Source: a virus. From it: DNA of 33,945 bases. The position numbers and the translations under genes are program-made. The notes under the pieces were generated by a model, which was given only the letters and a program-made list of their open reading frames with translations, was not told the DNA's origin and did no database searches. The DNA lies in IMG/VR virus record IMGVR_UViG_3300045960_000027, positions 1 through 33,945 of that record; one strand, given 5' to 3'. Of this stretch, positions 1,270 through 11,874 are shown one piece after another (the stretch's first letter is position 1; each line of letters starts with the position of its first letter).

Positions 1270-3504
1270 TCAATTGATTAATATTCCTCGATAACCTCGC
1301 ACACCACGTTTCTTGACGGGCACGACGGGAAAGTCCTTGGCCACGACGATGGTACTGGCGAACGCCTCATAGAATCTCTGTGCGCTCATTTGATGGAAGC
1401 CATTCAATAACGCCCATGTCGTGTACTCCGAGTACACCGTCGTCCTCGGTGTGAAGTCGCCGAGCCCCGGCGGCCTTGTGCACACTCGCTCCTCTATGAA
1501 CGAGCGCATGGGGTCAGCGTCACGTCTGAAATTCGCGGTCGCTTTCTGCACTGATTTTGGAATGGTGAATTTTCCGCGACGGAGTACTTGTTGCAGCCCA
1601 CCGACCGAATAACGCAGTAGTCCCTGCATATTGTCGATAGTGGTCAACTTGTCCACTAAGTTTGTGTCAGCCTTACCAGCTGGAAAGAAATTCTCGAATG
1701 GCACGACAACCCATCTGGAAAAGAACCCCTCTGTCGTGTCCGCCGTACGGGGTAGGGCATTGAACGCTGCGATCATCAAGGCACGGCACCTGAATACGAA
1801 TGGGTCCTTGTGCTTGTTTTGAGCGGTCATATAATCACCGCCTGTCAACTGCTTGAATTTCTCTGTCGATTTGAATATCTTGGGATCGACGTCACCGACC
1901 AAATTCGCCAATTTACCATGAAGTTGTGCGGCCGTGAATTGCGATGAGTCTAGGTCTTGTGGGGTGATGGCCGCTATATTGCTGTGGCCAACCAACATAC
2001 GCGCCAATCGTATGAATGTGCCCTTACCGTTACGGCCCGAACCATACAGTAGAATAGCCTTGTGTAGCGGATTGTCGTTATACAGCATATAACCCAACAA
2101 TTCATAGGCCAATTCGACTGCGTCATTCGGTAATATCTCGCCGAGGAATTTGTCGATCATAGGACATTCCGCGTCCTCATTCCATGGTATTGGTATTCTG
2201 ATCGTGCTGACAATATTAGGGTTATGTGGATGCAGCTTGCCTGTTCTCCAGTCAAGTAGACCATTTGGTAAATTCAGATAATCGGTGTCTTGCTTGTCGT
2301 CACGTATGAATGGAACACGTGACTCAATTACGGATTTGACATTGATCGCATGACTGGGTCTCCAACGTTGCCGCAATAATGACACGGTTCGACGTGTGAT
2401 CTCATAGTCACCGTCATTCGACCACACGCCATCATGGTGTCGGTAAATTATTCCGCCAGTGCCCGCGGCAAGATTTCCAGTCAACTCAACGGCATTGCGC
2501 AGTGTCTCGGAGCGCAGACCGTGCTTTGGGTCGAAGAATCGATCTGGACTCTTGTGTCGTTCTTTTTCCTCTATCAGGCAGGGGTCATCGGCTCTGACAA
2601 CACCCAGTGCGGATTTCTCCACCGCCCCCACGCACGCGCGTGACCATTCCGCCTCCGCTTGTCCCGGTTGTCGTCGTCCGCACTGTTCTATCAAATACAA
2701 AAATAAATCTTTTATCTTCCGCAATTCCACAACTCCACCGGTATGTCCAGTGCTTATCTCTGACACTATGGCCCATACGGCGTTTGTCATGGCGTCATGT
2801 AATCCGCCATCGCTGTGCTTTTTGATCAGTCGTATGTGTGTGTTGACCACACGCCGCATCTGTGGACACGCGACACCCTTCCCATGTTCACGAAGCCATA
2901 GACGACTGTCAACATTAGCTCTGTCACGACGGACATAGCCGCCACGACCCGCTAGTGTCAACCATTTTTCGGGTATGTCGGCGAACTCATCCGTACCAGG
3001 GAAATACGCGGTTGATGTGCGTAGTATTTTGCCGTTGAAATTGGCCCATCGATAGTGTGCGCCCGATGGGTGAACGGATGGTGGGATCACCATATATCTG
3101 TAGTGACGATATATGAGGTCGAGTCCAATGGACAATTTGCCTGGCCACACCGTCCCCGCGGGTGTGGTAAACCACAGATGATAGTGTTCGGGATCCCCTC
3201 TATAGGATACCCAGGTCCGCGGAAGTTTACCGTATTCGTATTCTAATTCGTCCAATGACGCTTGACCCGCGGCACCATCGATGTCGAGAACTACCACGCC
3301 ATCGGGAACCACTGTACCAATGTTGTGTTGTCTATTGGATGACAGCCAACCCGTCACGCTGTCGTCATCCACTATCACATCATTAGGAATACCAGAGGGT
3401 GGCGGGTACTTCTTACCGAATGGCAATGGGATTGGAAGGTATCCAGCGTTTAAATAGTCATCAGCCGCGACATGGAAGGGGGACCAACTATCCTTATTCT
3501 TCAT
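1270..3504 (-). CDS. Primase-polymerase / SF3 helicase (phage primase-helicase)
   Basis: This 744-residue protein should prime and unwind phage DNA at the replication fork. The N-terminal part is a bifunctional primase/polymerase domain. It has the metal-binding LDIDG motif (residues 73-77), the HYHLW motif (107-111) and a third conserved segment, PPSVHPSGAHYRW (about 141-153). The C-terminal half is a D5/P4-type superfamily 3 helicase with Walker A GSGRNGKGT (about 488-496), GDVD as Walker B (537-540), and the typical FNALPRTADT plus FFSRW segment (581-598) with sensor Asn and Arg finger. The start is supported by AGGTGATC 7 nt upstream. It is the last gene of the leftward block, with a terminator downstream. 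Part of its 3' region (1440-1518) is repeated inverted at the contig end. Confidence 0.92.
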   Translation of the reverse strand: MKNKDSWSPFHVAADDYLNAGYLPIPLPFGKKYPPPSGIPNDVIVDDDSVTGWLSSNRQHNIGTVVPDGVVVLDIDGAAGQASLDELEYEYGKLPRTWVSYRGDPEHYHLWFTTPAGTVWPGKLSIGLDLIYRHYRYMVIPPSVHPSGAHYRWANFNGKILRTSTAYFPGTDEFADIPEKWLTLAGRGGYVRRDRANVDSRLWLREHGKGVACPQMRRVVNTHIRLIKKHSDGGLHDAMTNAVWAIVSEISTGHTGGVVELRKIKDLFLYLIEQCGRRQPGQAEAEWSRACVGAVEKSALGVVRADDPCLIEEKERHKSPDRFFDPKHGLRSETLRNAVELTGNLAAGTGGIIYRHHDGVWSNDGDYEITRRTVSLLRQRWRPSHAINVKSVIESRVPFIRDDKQDTDYLNLPNGLLDWRTGKLHPHNPNIVSTIRIPIPWNEDAECPMIDKFLGEILPNDAVELAYELLGYMLYNDNPLHKAILLYGSGRNGKGTFIRLARMLVGHSNIAAITPQDLDSSQFTAAQLHGKLANLVGDVDPKIFKSTEKFKQLTGGDYMTAQNKHKDPFVFRCRALMIAAFNALPRTADTTEGFFSRWVVVPFENFFPAGKADTNLVDKLTTIDNMQGLLRYSVGGLQQVLRRGKFTIPKSVQKATANFRRDADPMRSFIEERVCTRPPGLGDFTPRTTVYSEYTTWALLNGFHQMSAQRFYEAFASTIVVAKDFPVVPVKKRGVRGYRGILIN
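1440..1518. repeat. 79-bp inverted repeat, internal copy (within primase gene)
   Basis: These 79 bp are an exact reverse complement of 33867-33945, the last bases of the window. This copy encodes an integral part of the primase-helicase C-terminus, so it is the native one. Identity stops abruptly at 1518/33867. Confidence 0.9.
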
Positions 3505-4699: not shown

Positions 4700-4900
4700 T
4701 TAGTTTACTTTGGGAAACTTTGGGAATTCATAGTTGAGTTCCCCCCATTCGGACAACAGAGCGTCATAGACGGTCAATTTGACTGTGGCATCGGGCTCGA
4801 TCACCATGTCAACGATTTCAATGACATCGACAGTGCCACTAGATTTATCGTTCACGTTATCCTTATTCCATCTTTTTATTTCACATATCCATGACCCCAT
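4700..4900 (-). CDS. Hypothetical protein, 66 residues
   Basis: Short ORF overlapping the 3' end of the polymerase palm gene by 25 bp and ending 1 bp before the resolvase start. Its tight fit between two recognised genes supports it as real. The product is acidic in the middle (DVIEIVDMVIEPD) and ends in PKFPKVN. No domain is recognised. Confidence 0.6.
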   Translation of the reverse strand: MGSWICEIKRWNKDNVNDKSSGTVDVIEIVDMVIEPDATVKLTVYDALLSEWGELNYEFPKFPKVN

Positions 4901-5727
4901 GATGGCCCATACACCTTGCCGCTGGCGGTCAATGGAACATCATTGATTGTTGTGCGCATGATCGAGCAATAGCGCTCGATATAATAATCAGCCTCATCGC
5001 TGGGTACCTGTGCTAGAAATTCGTCATGTATTGGCAATAGCAATGTTGGTGCCAGAATACTATCGTCCATCACACGCAATAGTGCTGTCGCCATGACATC
5101 ACGTGCCGTACTCTGTATCTCATGATTTACCACGGTGAACGCCTTCTCGGCGTCAATTATCAAACGACGACCAAACAATGTCGTCGTGTATCCAACCTTC
5201 CCACCTAGTAGTCGATGTATTTGCCTTTTAATTATTCGTCGCGCGACGAGTCCCTCGGATGTGTCGGCTCTAACTGTGTACATTCGTTGTCGTAGTGCCT
5301 TGTACACTCTCGAATCACATGGTGTGAGAGCACTATTCAATAGCGCATTTTGTTTCATAACTTTATAGCGCTTCAAGTATGGGAACGCCATCTCATAATC
5401 TGCTATGACTTTCGCCGCTTGATTGATTGAGATGTGTACCTGCTTCGACAGTGTGTCCGCGCCACCCCCGAACAGCCATCCAAAATTCAGATTCTTTGTA
5501 TAACGATATTGGTCGGGAGTGTAGTCAGGCCCAAATAATTTGATGGCCGCGGTCTTGTGCAGCGATTCGCCACGTTTGGCGGCGTCAATCAGACTGATCT
5601 CACCGGACAGTGCCGCGGCTATGCGCAATTCGATTTGGTCGTAGTCAACACTGATCATAGTCATGCCGGGGTCCGGAATGAAACAACGCCGGACCGCGGC
5701 GGAACTCAGTATGCTAATGCGTGTCAT
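4876..5727 (-). CDS. polA: Family A DNA polymerase, C-terminal palm-fingers subunit (split polA)
   Basis: The 283 residues contain the polymerase catalytic core. Motif A is ISVDYDQIELR with catalytic Asp28, motif B is YTKNLNFGWLFG (76-87) with Lys78 and Phe82, and motif C is LLPIHDEF (230-237) with Asp235. The N-terminus begins just before the VRRCFIPDPG stretch that normally precedes motif A, so the gene starts where the exonuclease/thumb gene (5994-7187) stopped. The start codon overlaps the stop of the 85-residue gene by ATGA, so translation is probably coupled. Oddities: the motif B position equivalent to E. coli Arg754 is Tyr74, and that of Tyr766 is Phe86. The two fragments must associate to form one enzyme; that is inference. 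Confidence 0.88.
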   Translation of the reverse strand: MTRISILSSAAVRRCFIPDPGMTMISVDYDQIELRIAAALSGEISLIDAAKRGESLHKTAAIKLFGPDYTPDQYRYTKNLNFGWLFGGGADTLSKQVHISINQAAKVIADYEMAFPYLKRYKVMKQNALLNSALTPCDSRVYKALRQRMYTVRADTSEGLVARRIIKRQIHRLLGGKVGYTTTLFGRRLIIDAEKAFTVVNHEIQSTARDVMATALLRVMDDSILAPTLLLPIHDEFLAQVPSDEADYYIERYCSIMRTTINDVPLTASGKVYGPSWGHGYVK

Positions 5728-5981
5728 GTTTTTTTGTATTTGGTCTTCGGTCCATTCGACGTGTCCTTGTACGCGGCGACCGCGCGTCGTTTGTCATAGT
5801 CGACCATTGACGCGTACACCTCGATTCGCACCGATGCGGCAATCTCCAACAGGTCCTCCAAGGGCATGGACTTCAATTTCGCCTCATATTGCTGAATAAT
5901 CTCCAAAGTCAATTGTTCACGTGTCGCGGTTGTGAATGAGCCAGCGACGGCGGCAGTCAATGGGTCATATGGCGTAGTCAT
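5724..5981 (-). CDS. Hypothetical protein inserted between the two halves of the DNA polymerase
   Basis: An 85-residue, largely helical protein with a charged middle (EIIQQYEAKLKSMPLEDLLE) and a basic tail (PKTKYKKT). It lies exactly between the exonuclease/thumb and palm/fingers genes. It is in the same frame as the upstream fragment but separated from it by in-frame TAG and TGA codons, and it overlaps the downstream fragment by 4 bp. No homing endonuclease, intein or intron motif is visible. It may be a bridging subunit of the split polymerase or an unrelated insertion. Confidence 0.65.
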   Translation of the reverse strand: MTTPYDPLTAAVAGSFTTATREQLTLEIIQQYEAKLKSMPLEDLLEIAASVRIEVYASMVDYDKRRAVAAYKDTSNGPKTKYKKT

Positions 5982-5993
5982 ATGTCATTGTCT

Positions 5994-7187
5994 CTATTCA
6001 TTGTTTTTGGTGGGCAGCTGCTGCAATGGCGGATTACTCACGGACATCCTAGCGGTTCGTGCCGCCAGAATGTTGATGGATGGATGGATTCTCCCATTGT
6101 CATCCATTTCGCGTAGCATACTCTCCGTATAACTCTTTCTTCGTTTCGCACAACGCTTAGCCTCTAGCACACAATCGATGAACGCGAATAGGTATGTATC
6201 CTTTGTGATCGTTGTGCCATCCGATTGATAGGCATTCGATAGATCACGCAATACCGAATCGGTGACTTGCAACTTTCCCGTGGGTGTTCTCTTGGACAGA
6301 GTACCGCCGAGAGTGATGATTGTATCGGCCAATTCCTTGGTGCTATTCAGGTTGGAACAGCCACAAAATTTGATGTGTGTCATATCCATGTCATACACAG
6401 CGCCATATGATTCATTCAATCTACGTGTGTAGTCGACATCCAATCGAATGGCCCGCCGCTGTAGTGTGTCAGCGACTCGCGCCACACGTAGATCAAATTC
6501 ATACAACTCTTTGAATTGGTTGACAACTGGCTCCAATTTGTGCCATAGACGATAGGTCAATAATGGATCACTTCCGGCGTAGGCTATATACTCAGGGCAT
6601 CGCTTGTTCACCAAACGCCAACCCTCCGACAATCGCGCGGCGCGCGTTCTTCTCTGTCCCTTCTTCGGTCCCTGCTTATAGTGACCCTTTATCGGTACGC
6701 GTAGTGTTTTGAATAATTTCTTTAATGCTGTCTCCCACTTCCCGGCGGAACTGTCGACATAATGAATCGCCAGTTCCTTCAGACCATGACCAACACCACC
6801 CTCCGCGGCATTCCGTGGGTCGATATGATGCGACGGTATATGCGTTTCCATATCGCATTTGACACCTGTGTCATATCCAAGATATCTGTCTATACAGCGA
6901 ATGTCATGACAGCCATTGTGTCCAATCCACCGAATCGGTTGTCTCATCACCCACGCTATCAATGAGCGCCTCTCGGCGGGTATCACATAACTTGTGACGG
7001 CATCACCGATCTGTAGTGTGCGCAGTTTCCATGAATGGGAATAGCAATTGAGTCCTGTCGACTCTGTGTCAATGCCCAGTATGGGATTGCTGTTGACAAA
7101 GTGCTTTACTTGTGGATAATCCTCTTTACTATTGATATATTTGAATGTTATATGATCACCAGCCAATGTATCATGTATGGTCAACAT
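5994..7187 (-). CDS. polA: Family A DNA polymerase, N-terminal 3'-5' exonuclease and thumb subunit (split polA)
   Basis: The protein has an intact DnaQ-like proofreading domain: Exo I GIDTEST (Asp40, Glu42), Exo II HNGCHD (Asn91, Asp95) and Exo III YAGSD (Tyr203, Asp207). Thumb-like sequence follows. It ends at GRIHPSINILAARTARMSVSN then PPLQQLPTKNNE, the segment that in ordinary PolA proteins runs directly on to the palm. The reading frame stops there, and the palm follows 267 bp away as a separate gene. The start overlaps the upstream 176-residue gene by 17 bp. At 397 residues plus 283 the total matches a full phage PolA, so no catalytic part seems lost. Confidence 0.88.
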   Translation of the reverse strand: MLTIHDTLAGDHITFKYINSKEDYPQVKHFVNSNPILGIDTESTGLNCYSHSWKLRTLQIGDAVTSYVIPAERRSLIAWVMRQPIRWIGHNGCHDIRCIDRYLGYDTGVKCDMETHIPSHHIDPRNAAEGGVGHGLKELAIHYVDSSAGKWETALKKLFKTLRVPIKGHYKQGPKKGQRRTRAARLSEGWRLVNKRCPEYIAYAGSDPLLTYRLWHKLEPVVNQFKELYEFDLRVARVADTLQRRAIRLDVDYTRRLNESYGAVYDMDMTHIKFCGCSNLNSTKELADTIITLGGTLSKRTPTGKLQVTDSVLRDLSNAYQSDGTTITKDTYLFAFIDCVLEAKRCAKRRKSYTESMLREMDDNGRIHPSINILAARTARMSVSNPPLQQLPTKNNE

Positions 7188-8283: not shown

Positions 8284-8868
8284 TTAGAAGGGTTCGTCGT
8301 CGTCGTACTCGTCGTCGTCGCTTTCTTCTCCGTACTCGTCGTCTTCGTCGTCTTCGTCTTCGACGGTGTCGTCATACTCATTCTCCGAATCGTTTTTGGG
8401 AACCGCTCCCATCCAACCGATCTCTTTCCGTGGGTTACCGTTTTGATCCTGGCCTTCTTGCAAACGCGCCAAGATTGTAACGGCACCGGTATTACGCCAG
8501 TGACCAAACTGTTTGATATTTCCCTCATTGTCAACGATCATTTGATTACAGAACTCACGTCCCGTGATACCGATGGCATCGCAGAATGGAACATATGTGA
8601 ATTGGTTATTAGCTGTGATGGTACGGAATACCATGATGAAGTAACCCTTGTACTTCCGTTCCTCTGGAAAATTCCTGCGCGGTTCCAACTGTAGGCCAAT
8701 ATACAGTTGTGGGTGCGTTGTCTTCGTCCTCGGCGTGCTTCTCAGCGTCTTGATTCTAAACTCATACACACCAACCGGAGGGACCGGCCCTGTATATGGA
8801 GCGAAAATGGTACTACGATCGAAATTATCGATCAATGACGGGTCGATACCCCACGAACCTCTAGGCAC
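8284..8868 (-). CDS. ssb: Single-stranded DNA-binding protein with acidic DDDEPF tail
   Basis: A 194-residue protein with a roughly 140-residue N-terminal globular part rich in beta-strand segments and aromatic residues, followed by a highly acidic tail. The final residues DDDEPF resemble the C-terminal tip of bacterial SSB (DDDIPF), through which SSB recruits partner proteins. The gene follows the Sak4-like ATPase gene with an 8-bp overlap, a pairing known from phage recombination modules. Start is GTG 8868 with AGAGGG upstream. The OB-fold itself is inferred; the tail and neighbour are what I see. Confidence 0.72.
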   Translation of the reverse strand: MPRGSWGIDPSLIDNFDRSTIFAPYTGPVPPVGVYEFRIKTLRSTPRTKTTHPQLYIGLQLEPRRNFPEERKYKGYFIMVFRTITANNQFTYVPFCDAIGITGREFCNQMIVDNEGNIKQFGHWRNTGAVTILARLQEGQDQNGNPRKEIGWMGAVPKNDSENEYDDTVEDEDDEDDEYGEESDDDEYDDDEPF

Positions 8869-10908: not shown

Positions 10909-10984
10909 TGGTGCTCTTAGTGAGATTCGAACTCACACTATACGACTTTTAAGGTCGCTGCCTCTGCCATTGGGCTATAAGAGC
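10909..10984 (-). tRNA. tRNA-Leu(UAA) with short variable loop, CCA encoded
   Basis: On the minus strand GCTCTTA and TAAGAGC form a perfect 7-bp acceptor stem, followed by A73 and encoded CCA. The T arm is GTGAG-TTCGAAT-CTCAC. The anticodon arm is GCGAC-CTTAAAA-GTCGT, with T33 and anticodon TAA, reading codon UUA (Leu). The D arm is GCC/GGC plus a C-A opposition. The variable region is only five nt (ATAGT), whereas bacterial tRNA-Leu normally has a long extra arm. It sits between leftward genes at 10874 and 11032 and is preceded by a hairpin. Confidence 0.85.
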
Positions 10985-11031: not shown

Positions 11032-11874
11032 TTAGAACAGAAAGTCATCGGCACCACCAATTCGGTCGTGATCCGTTGACTTGGATTGCGCCTTTGGCCT
11101 TGTCTTGGGTCGCGTTTTGGCCACGGTCGTGGGCACTCGACTACCACTATTAATCTTTGGCCTATTCGGCGCGACTGCCGTGCGCTTGCCTGTCACTACC
11201 GGCGGTTCTTCTTCATCGTCTTCATCAAATTCGTCGTCTTCGTCTTCGTCGTCTTCGTCTTCGTCTTCGTCGTCTTCGTCGTCTTCGTCGTCTTCGTCGT
11301 CTTCGTCGTCTTCGTCTTCGTCTTCGTCGTCCTCATCTTCCTTGTTGTCGTTGTCGTTGCTGTTGTCTTCGTCGATGTCGTACGCGTCGCTCTCTTCGTC
11401 GTCAGTGTCTTCATTGATATCTTCAATGGTGTCATCTTCGGCGATATCAATATCAATTGTCTTCGATGAAACCTTTGACGCACGTCTCGTAGCCCTATTT
11501 GGTTCAACAATCATCTCAGGTTCTGACTCCTGTGATGGTTTACGACCGCGGCGTGCGGTTCCCTTAGTCGCATACCACTTCTCCAGATGCTCACTCGCCA
11601 TAAAAGCCGTGCGCGCAACAGAGGCGATGCTGACACCACGCAAGAATGCGGCGCGCTTACTCGGCGCGACATCGGGGTCATAGCCAACCTCATCCACAAT
11701 CCAACGTGCGAATGTCTTGTGGTAATCAGTCGGTGGTTTCGTCGCGTACATCGTGACATCTCGACTTGTCGCCTGCACACGATCCGTGGTCGCATTGGGC
11801 GCCGCCGCGGCGGGTGGCATCTTTGGACTACGCCGCTTCGCTGTCGTGGCCTTCTTAGTCGTGCGCTGATTCAT
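11032..11874 (-). CDS. Basic/acidic low-complexity phage protein of unknown function
   Basis: 280 residues in three zones: a basic Lys/Thr/Pro N-terminus (1-30); a folded segment with DYHKTFARWIVDEVGYDPD and SKRAAFLRGVSIASVARTAF (about 50-110), a pattern I associate with actinobacteriophage hypothetical proteins; and a long, almost pure Asp/Glu tract (about 150-220) before a basic Pro/Lys/Arg tail. RRGRKPS near 113-119 resembles an AT-hook. It overlaps the end of the SNF2 helicase gene by 4 bp (ATGA). The polyacidic tract might mimic DNA or chaperone basic proteins; unproven. Confidence 0.7.
   Translation of the reverse strand: MNQRTTKKATTAKRRSPKMPPAAAAPNATTDRVQATSRDVTMYATKPPTDYHKTFARWIVDEVGYDPDVAPSKRAAFLRGVSIASVARTAFMASEHLEKWYATKGTARRGRKPSQESEPEMIVEPNRATRRASKVSSKTIDIDIAEDDTIEDINEDTDDEESDAYDIDEDNSNDNDNKEDEDDEDEDEDDEDDEDDEDDEDDEDEDEDDEDEDDEFDEDDEEEPPVVTGKRTAVAPNRPKINSGSRVPTTVAKTRPKTRPKAQSKSTDHDRIGGADDFLF
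11203..11340. repeat. Trinucleotide/nonamer tandem repeat encoding the Asp/Glu tract
   Basis: Plus strand reads as imperfect tandem GTCGTCTTC and GTCTTC units for over 100 bp. On the coding strand they are GAT/GAC/GAA/GAG codons. All units are multiples of three, so length change by slippage would keep the frame. A shorter region of the same kind encodes the SSB tail near 8290-8370. Confidence 0.85.

Follow-up and report, generated by a model that had tools for sequence, protein, structure and literature searches.

When the gene for a family A DNA polymerase is found in a phage genome in two pieces, with a further small gene lodged between them, are we looking at a ruin, at an interrupted gene whose product is made whole again, or at an enzyme that works as more than one chain? 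The question is posed by a virus record of 33,945 bases (below, the window, by which we mean this entire stretch of DNA), for which the original prediction left the choice between a two- or three-subunit polymerase and a decayed insertion. The answer to which the comparisons described here lead us, with a probability that we put at about 0.86, is that the family A polymerase of this phage lineage would be an obligate two-subunit enzyme, a stable heterodimer of the proteins that we denote PolA-N and PolA-C.

The two halves of the polymerase

The three open reading frames foreseen for this region are indeed present and lie consecutively on the minus strand: PolA-N (5994-7187; 397 amino acids, ending with TAG), the gene of an 85-residue protein modeled as a helical hairpin (5724-5981), and PolA-C (4876-5727; 283 amino acids). 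Within the junction on the 3' side of PolA-N (5982-5996, minus strand), both expected in-frame stops, TAG at 5996-5994 and TGA at 5987-5985, can be read, followed by the ATG of the 85-residue gene, which continues in the frame of PolA-N after these two stops and whose own stop overlaps the ATG of PolA-C as ATGA (5727-5724). That PolA-N and the small gene share a frame is, judging by the relatives discussed below, a coincidence, because these differ both in frame and in the length of the gap.

PolA-N consists of a 3'-5' exonuclease domain (a Pfam match to PF01612 with E=1e-10, and the motifs Exo I GIDTESTG, Exo II HNGCHD and Exo III YAGSD), the thumb and the first palm segment, ARTARMSVSNPPLQQLP; this segment contains the equivalent of Arg668 of E. 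coli Pol I, the primer-contacting arginine. PolA-C comprises the remaining palm and the fingers, with motif A (SVDYDQIELR), the O-helix region YRYTKNLNFGWLFGG and motif C (IHDE), and hence also the catalytic aspartates of motifs A and C. In the window, the DNA_pol_A profile of Pfam (PF00476) is matched over positions 23-136 by PolA-N and from position 139 onward by PolA-C. The proposal that the break entails no visible loss thus holds, and it does so equally in 11 relatives, where the two matches (approximately 2-145 and 128-380) are likewise complementary. Taken across the two chains, the DNA_pol_A domain has its motifs A, B and C as well as the palm segment that precedes motif A, and the exonuclease domain retains its DEDD motifs, which are found in all 12 of the records compared.

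In a profile alignment with the Klenow fragment, PolA-N ends at chain position 363 and PolA-C resumes at 365, which convert to approximately residues 686 and 688 of Klenow. The cut accordingly falls within the palm, in the loop that follows RMSVSNPPLQQLP, so that the Arg668 equivalent and the catalytic aspartates reside on different proteins.

The same replication module includes a protein that combines a Prim-Pol with a D5-type helicase (1270-3504, minus strand); the Prim-Pol is present in the records of 9 of the 11 relatives, that is, in 10 of 12 when the window is counted. Several other features of the region deserve mention in their own right, all on the minus strand: a 194-residue protein (8284-8868) whose C-terminal tail is acidic and has Phe as its last residue, as in phage single-strand-binding proteins, and for which there is no Pfam match; a tRNA-Leu gene with the anticodon TAA (10909-10984); and a 280-residue protein (11032-11874) that contains a very long tract of Asp/Glu, opposite which a poly-Ser reading frame (11081-11683) is probably spurious.

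Conservation and origin of the break

Relatives were collected from IMG/VR, where a scan with the palm half yielded five and a profile scan ten (L001-L005 and L008-L012), to which a scan with the first half added one full relative (L117) along with a near copy, L118, and the fragment L125. The set used for assessing conservation consists of the window and 11 relatives, 12 records in all, which are uncultured metagenomic contigs. The halves of the relatives are 45-57% identical to those of the window, and the cut falls at one and the same residue of the polymerase in all 11 (Klenow ~686/688). Their first halves end with QQLPT and a brief tail (KDRDDEEG, for example); their second halves begin with (M/V)KLLSSAAIRRC or a near variant, from an ATG or GTG placed ahead of KLL or its equivalent, and where some of the relatives have frames that start farther upstream, these were regarded as mere open frame. 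The second half of L005 runs off the end of the contig, and in L012 PF00476 is reported as two stretches within what is a single frame of the C half; no third piece of PF00476 was found in any of the 12 whole records. The distant polymerases recovered in the same scans, like the actinophage enzymes, are uncut and continuous across this point, as in QQLPSGDWKVRR.

In a maximum likelihood tree of the joined halves and the uncut relatives, built with a quick method, the 12 split enzymes form one clade (SH-aLRT 100) on a stem of 0.84 changes per site, and the nearest intact polymerases are L016, L127 and the actinophage enzymes. Given this grouping, the history is most simply read as a single cut that would predate the ancestor shared by the known relatives, at least 12 in number, and was then kept while the halves diverged. 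Differences from the window at the three codon positions amount to approximately 0.38/0.30/0.67 in the N half and 0.38/0.28/0.67 in the C half, a pattern from which we conclude that both halves are under purifying selection. The exonuclease and polymerase motifs are conserved across the 12 (motif B by inspection of the alignment), which bears out, for the relatives as well as for the window, the claim that all proofreading and polymerase motifs are present across the two pieces, with the C half of L005 truncated by the contig end. Because the stop codon of PolA-N differs between relatives, being TAG, TAA or TGA, a stop codon that is read through does not account for the arrangement. Neither a PolB, nor a PolIII alpha subunit, nor an intact PolA was recognized in the whole records of the 12.

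Two further observations concern the sequences themselves. In family A polymerases, the residue that corresponds to Phe762 of E. coli Pol I influences which nucleotide is selected; in the O-helix (P0001, residues 74-90) this residue is Phe in the window and Tyr in L001, L004 and L012, and the O-helix region of L009, L010 and L117 shows additional changes (NFTWAFGG or NFTFAFGG). In the uncut relatives, the stretch LPS.D resembles both the end of PolA-N (LPTKD) and the start of PolA-C (LLSADT in L004 and L008), and the Pfam matches of the two halves overlap by about nine positions in two records. If the breakage of the gene produced a small duplication, the repeated LPS.D-like stretch would be accounted for; the stretch is too short for proof.

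The gap and the small helical protein

The gap between the halves, in the window and its relatives together, ranges fivefold in length, from ~0.3 to 1.6 kb, with differing frames, and contains one to about five short genes. The packing is tight and operon-like: the genes mostly overlap by 1-20 bases, and for some of them a purine-rich sequence resembling a ribosome-binding site lies within the codons for the acidic tail of PolA-N. Among ten gap proteins that were scanned, a VapB-like fold (L001 and L009) and SLOG/YspA (L005) were recognized, and no endonuclease family scored above the cut-off. The gap of L012 might encode a membrane protein, and several other gap genes (L001-L005, L008-L012) belong to no recognized family. 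The break in polA is, then, a landing or parking place for varied small accessory genes.

The most frequent occupant is a family of proteins of ~75-130 residues with the core EMTREELIEEI..Q.A.L....DLK..II..R...Y..RLV.EA.L., which became visible only when the gaps of the relatives were read; a direct sequence search with the 85-residue protein of the window (P0002) in phages and viral contigs returned no homologue. That protein is a divergent member of the family, scoring 16.2 bits against a profile built without it, compared with a best score of 8.0 bits among 2000 shuffles of itself. When the family was sought at the other split PolA loci, as had been suggested, it turned up in the gap of 10 of the 12 records, and the gap is its sole location within these ten. 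It was not found anywhere in the records of L003, the first-branching member of the split clade, or L009, an 18 kb fragment. The mean identity within the family is 30%, against 59-60% for the polymerase halves, so the small protein evolves faster. AlphaFold models the 85-residue protein as a long helical hairpin with a pLDDT of ~95 in the core, for which Foldseek found no significant structural match in the PDB or BFVD.

Attempts to assign the family to something known were given up in three cases. A Rho_N/SAP identity is contradicted by the score (for Rho_N, 19.8 bits where the cut-off is 24.9, and this for the member in the window alone out of eight) and by the model, which is a hairpin; sequence matches in the PDB, at E-values of 0.003 or weaker, were to helical proteins, designed helical repeats among them, and were taken to reflect helix bias; and a resemblance to gp14 of phage MEP401 noticed by eye (RLVETSGL against RMVAEAKL) scores ~5 bits, the level of shuffled sequences, with an hhalign probability of 12-15%. 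Since the family is missing from L003 and L009, the hairpin protein is best seen as a favored accessory, perhaps a modulator, rather than an obligatory third subunit; it might modulate or stabilize the enzyme, as the most common among the short genes that the break would now host, with no need for it in every member of the lineage.

Two chains, the alternatives and known split polymerases

How would such an enzyme work? We infer that PolA-N and PolA-C, separated in a palm loop near Klenow residue 687 and made side by side from one tightly packed operon, assemble noncovalently such that the palm and the active site are completed across the chains. With its exonuclease, PolA-N would do the proofreading, and it would also contribute the thumb and the first palm strand with its primer-contacting arginine; everything else in the palm, together with the fingers and the catalytic aspartates, would come from PolA-C. 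When PolA-C is modeled alone with AlphaFold, the fingers are well predicted (pLDDT ~90) and Foldseek still recognizes the Pol I fold, and the pLDDT drops below 50 for residues 1-27, 228-239 and 268-283, stretches that contain or border on motif A, motif C and the C terminus. This low-confidence palm would fit, if weakly, with assembly onto PolA-N, considering that the model is of the C half alone, from a shallow alignment of 11 sequences and with no intact control, and that the apparent disorder could stem from the alignment. The activity of the split enzyme appears to be supported best by its conservation together with the precedent of Aeromonas phage 25, whose gp43A and gp43B, made separately, co-purify and polymerise (PMC2988022).

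Of the readings that compete with a two-chain enzyme, a decaying pseudogene, or an assembly or sequencing error in an ordinary polA, might be the first to come to mind, in-frame stops being a common sign of either, but it is next to inconceivable given that the identical break recurs in 11 relatives, each assembled separately, and that the motifs are intact and selection on both halves is purifying; with it goes the decayed insertion, as far as the polymerase is concerned. It is also very improbable that the pieces are exons or exteins that are rejoined by a self-splicing intron (group I or II) or a split intein, even though introns often reside in the DNA polymerase genes of phages, as in KASIA (PMC8541194), and an intron was considered for the split polymerase of the OM43 phages (PMC10580990). 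There is no Rfam match at gathering scores in the window or in 10 loci of the relatives, nor at E<=1 over 5600-6100 of the window, although a previously undescribed type of intron would be missed in this way; the gap varies greatly in length and content, differs in frame and is in most cases filled with coding genes, which is hard to reconcile with an intron or, for that matter, a frameshift; and both halves keep a conserved stop and start of their own. Inspection revealed no intein splicing blocks and no intein-like sequence in the PolA-N tail, and the pieces end between a few and ~20 residues from the break, which leaves no room for an intein domain. The element that could restore one continuous chain, named beforehand as a possible counter-argument, was sought by both routes and did not appear. 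Somewhat less far-fetched, and still improbable, is the view that the halves are separate enzymes, with PolA-N a lone exonuclease, PolA-C a remnant in some other use and the phage replicated by a host polymerase. The exonuclease domain could fold by itself, the phage also encodes the Prim-Pol/D5 protein, and a host enzyme could in principle do the work; against this, the thumb is complete and the primer-contacting palm segment present in PolA-N, and the polymerase motifs are retained in PolA-C, in 12 of 12 records (with the cut C half of L005), neither half makes sense alone, and no other polymerase is recognized in these records.

A more serious contender, which we nevertheless consider unlikely, is a three-subunit polymerase in which the hairpin protein joins the halves, as a structural subunit or clamp, or acts as a processivity or strand-displacement factor. 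The gap-restricted occurrence of the family in 10 of 12 records, the score of P0002 well above that of its shuffles and the confident hairpin model all speak for it, as does the presence of a different small protein, likewise helical in appearance, at the split of phages of the OM43 type (PMC10580990). What tells against a third subunit is that L003 and the fragmentary L009 have the split and lack the family, that the small protein diverges faster than the halves, that the halves in Alcaligenes phage QDWS535 have no gene between them and that the similarity to gp14 of the OM43 phages does not rise above shuffled sequences. The stronger version, a heterotrimer that has the gap-only hairpin as a subunit devoted to assembly or processivity, with different small helical proteins recruited to the same end by other phages with split PolA, seems to us slightly more doubtful still. 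From the original prediction, then, the multi-subunit polymerase survives in its two-chain form, given the same-residue split in 12 related phages, the intact motifs and the lack of an alternative DNA polymerase; the interposed partner is retained as a linked gene, and its rank as a third subunit is called into question by its absence from two records, its faster evolution and the presence of other small genes in the gap.

Split PolA as such is already known. In the OM43 phages MEP401 and MEP402 (Zobellviridae; OP830906 and OP830907), PolA is encoded in two halves that are separated by a small ORF, and their describers wondered about an intron (PMC10580990). As in the window, the exonuclease and thumb gene comes first and the palm and fingers gene second. 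In contrast to the window, whose break lies upstream of V/IRRC, the cut in these phages is ~15 residues later, immediately before motif A, with which gp15 starts (MILNADAK); their PolA is on a distant branch of the tree, so the split of MEP401 (L007, 6111-8221) is independent of that in the window lineage. The conserved ORF at their split, of 61-78 residues, is encoded at 17 viral loci, and gp14 of MEP401 is not detectably homologous to the hairpin family. The cultured Alcaligenes phage vB_Af_QDWS535 (OK172329, L141, 1311-3226) resembles the window in having the PolA halves in two adjacent, overlapping genes, but there is nothing between them, the cut is before motif A and the enzyme groups with MEP401. 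With a break of the MEP401 type located elsewhere in the protein and on a distant PolA branch, split PolA has arisen at least twice on the tree.

Beyond family A, the B-type polymerase of Methanobacterium thermoautotrophicum reportedly consists of two polypeptides (Kelman et al. 1999, cited in PMC3984812); it shares this feature with the window but is archaeal and belongs to family B. The gp43 of Aeromonas phages 25 and 44RR is, as here, a replicative phage polymerase in two polypeptides (PMC2988022), but one of family B, with a seg homing endonuclease or an intercistronic sequence at the split, neither of which was recognized in the window. The nearest uncut relatives, the intact PolA of Arthrobacter phage SWEP2, Mycobacterium phage D29, L127 and L016, have the same motifs in a single chain that is about 25-37% identical, and SWEP2 and L127 even share the junction sequence PPLQQLP with the split lineage.

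No published description of this lineage was found in the open-access literature, so what the window adds to these known systems is, as far as can be read from the genomes, an ancient, stable and conserved split polymerase in a phage lineage without an earlier description in the literature searched. Annotation pipelines will label such polymerases truncated. The 12 diverse pairs offer material for studying how an active site is assembled from two chains, their natural breakpoint could be useful for split-polymerase tools, and they allow a test of whether small proteins that have settled in a split gene become subunits or are mere passengers. Set beside the OM43 phages, the lineage indicates that a split in the family A palm can be tolerated and retained over long evolution in a separate line of descent and at a different position of the cut.
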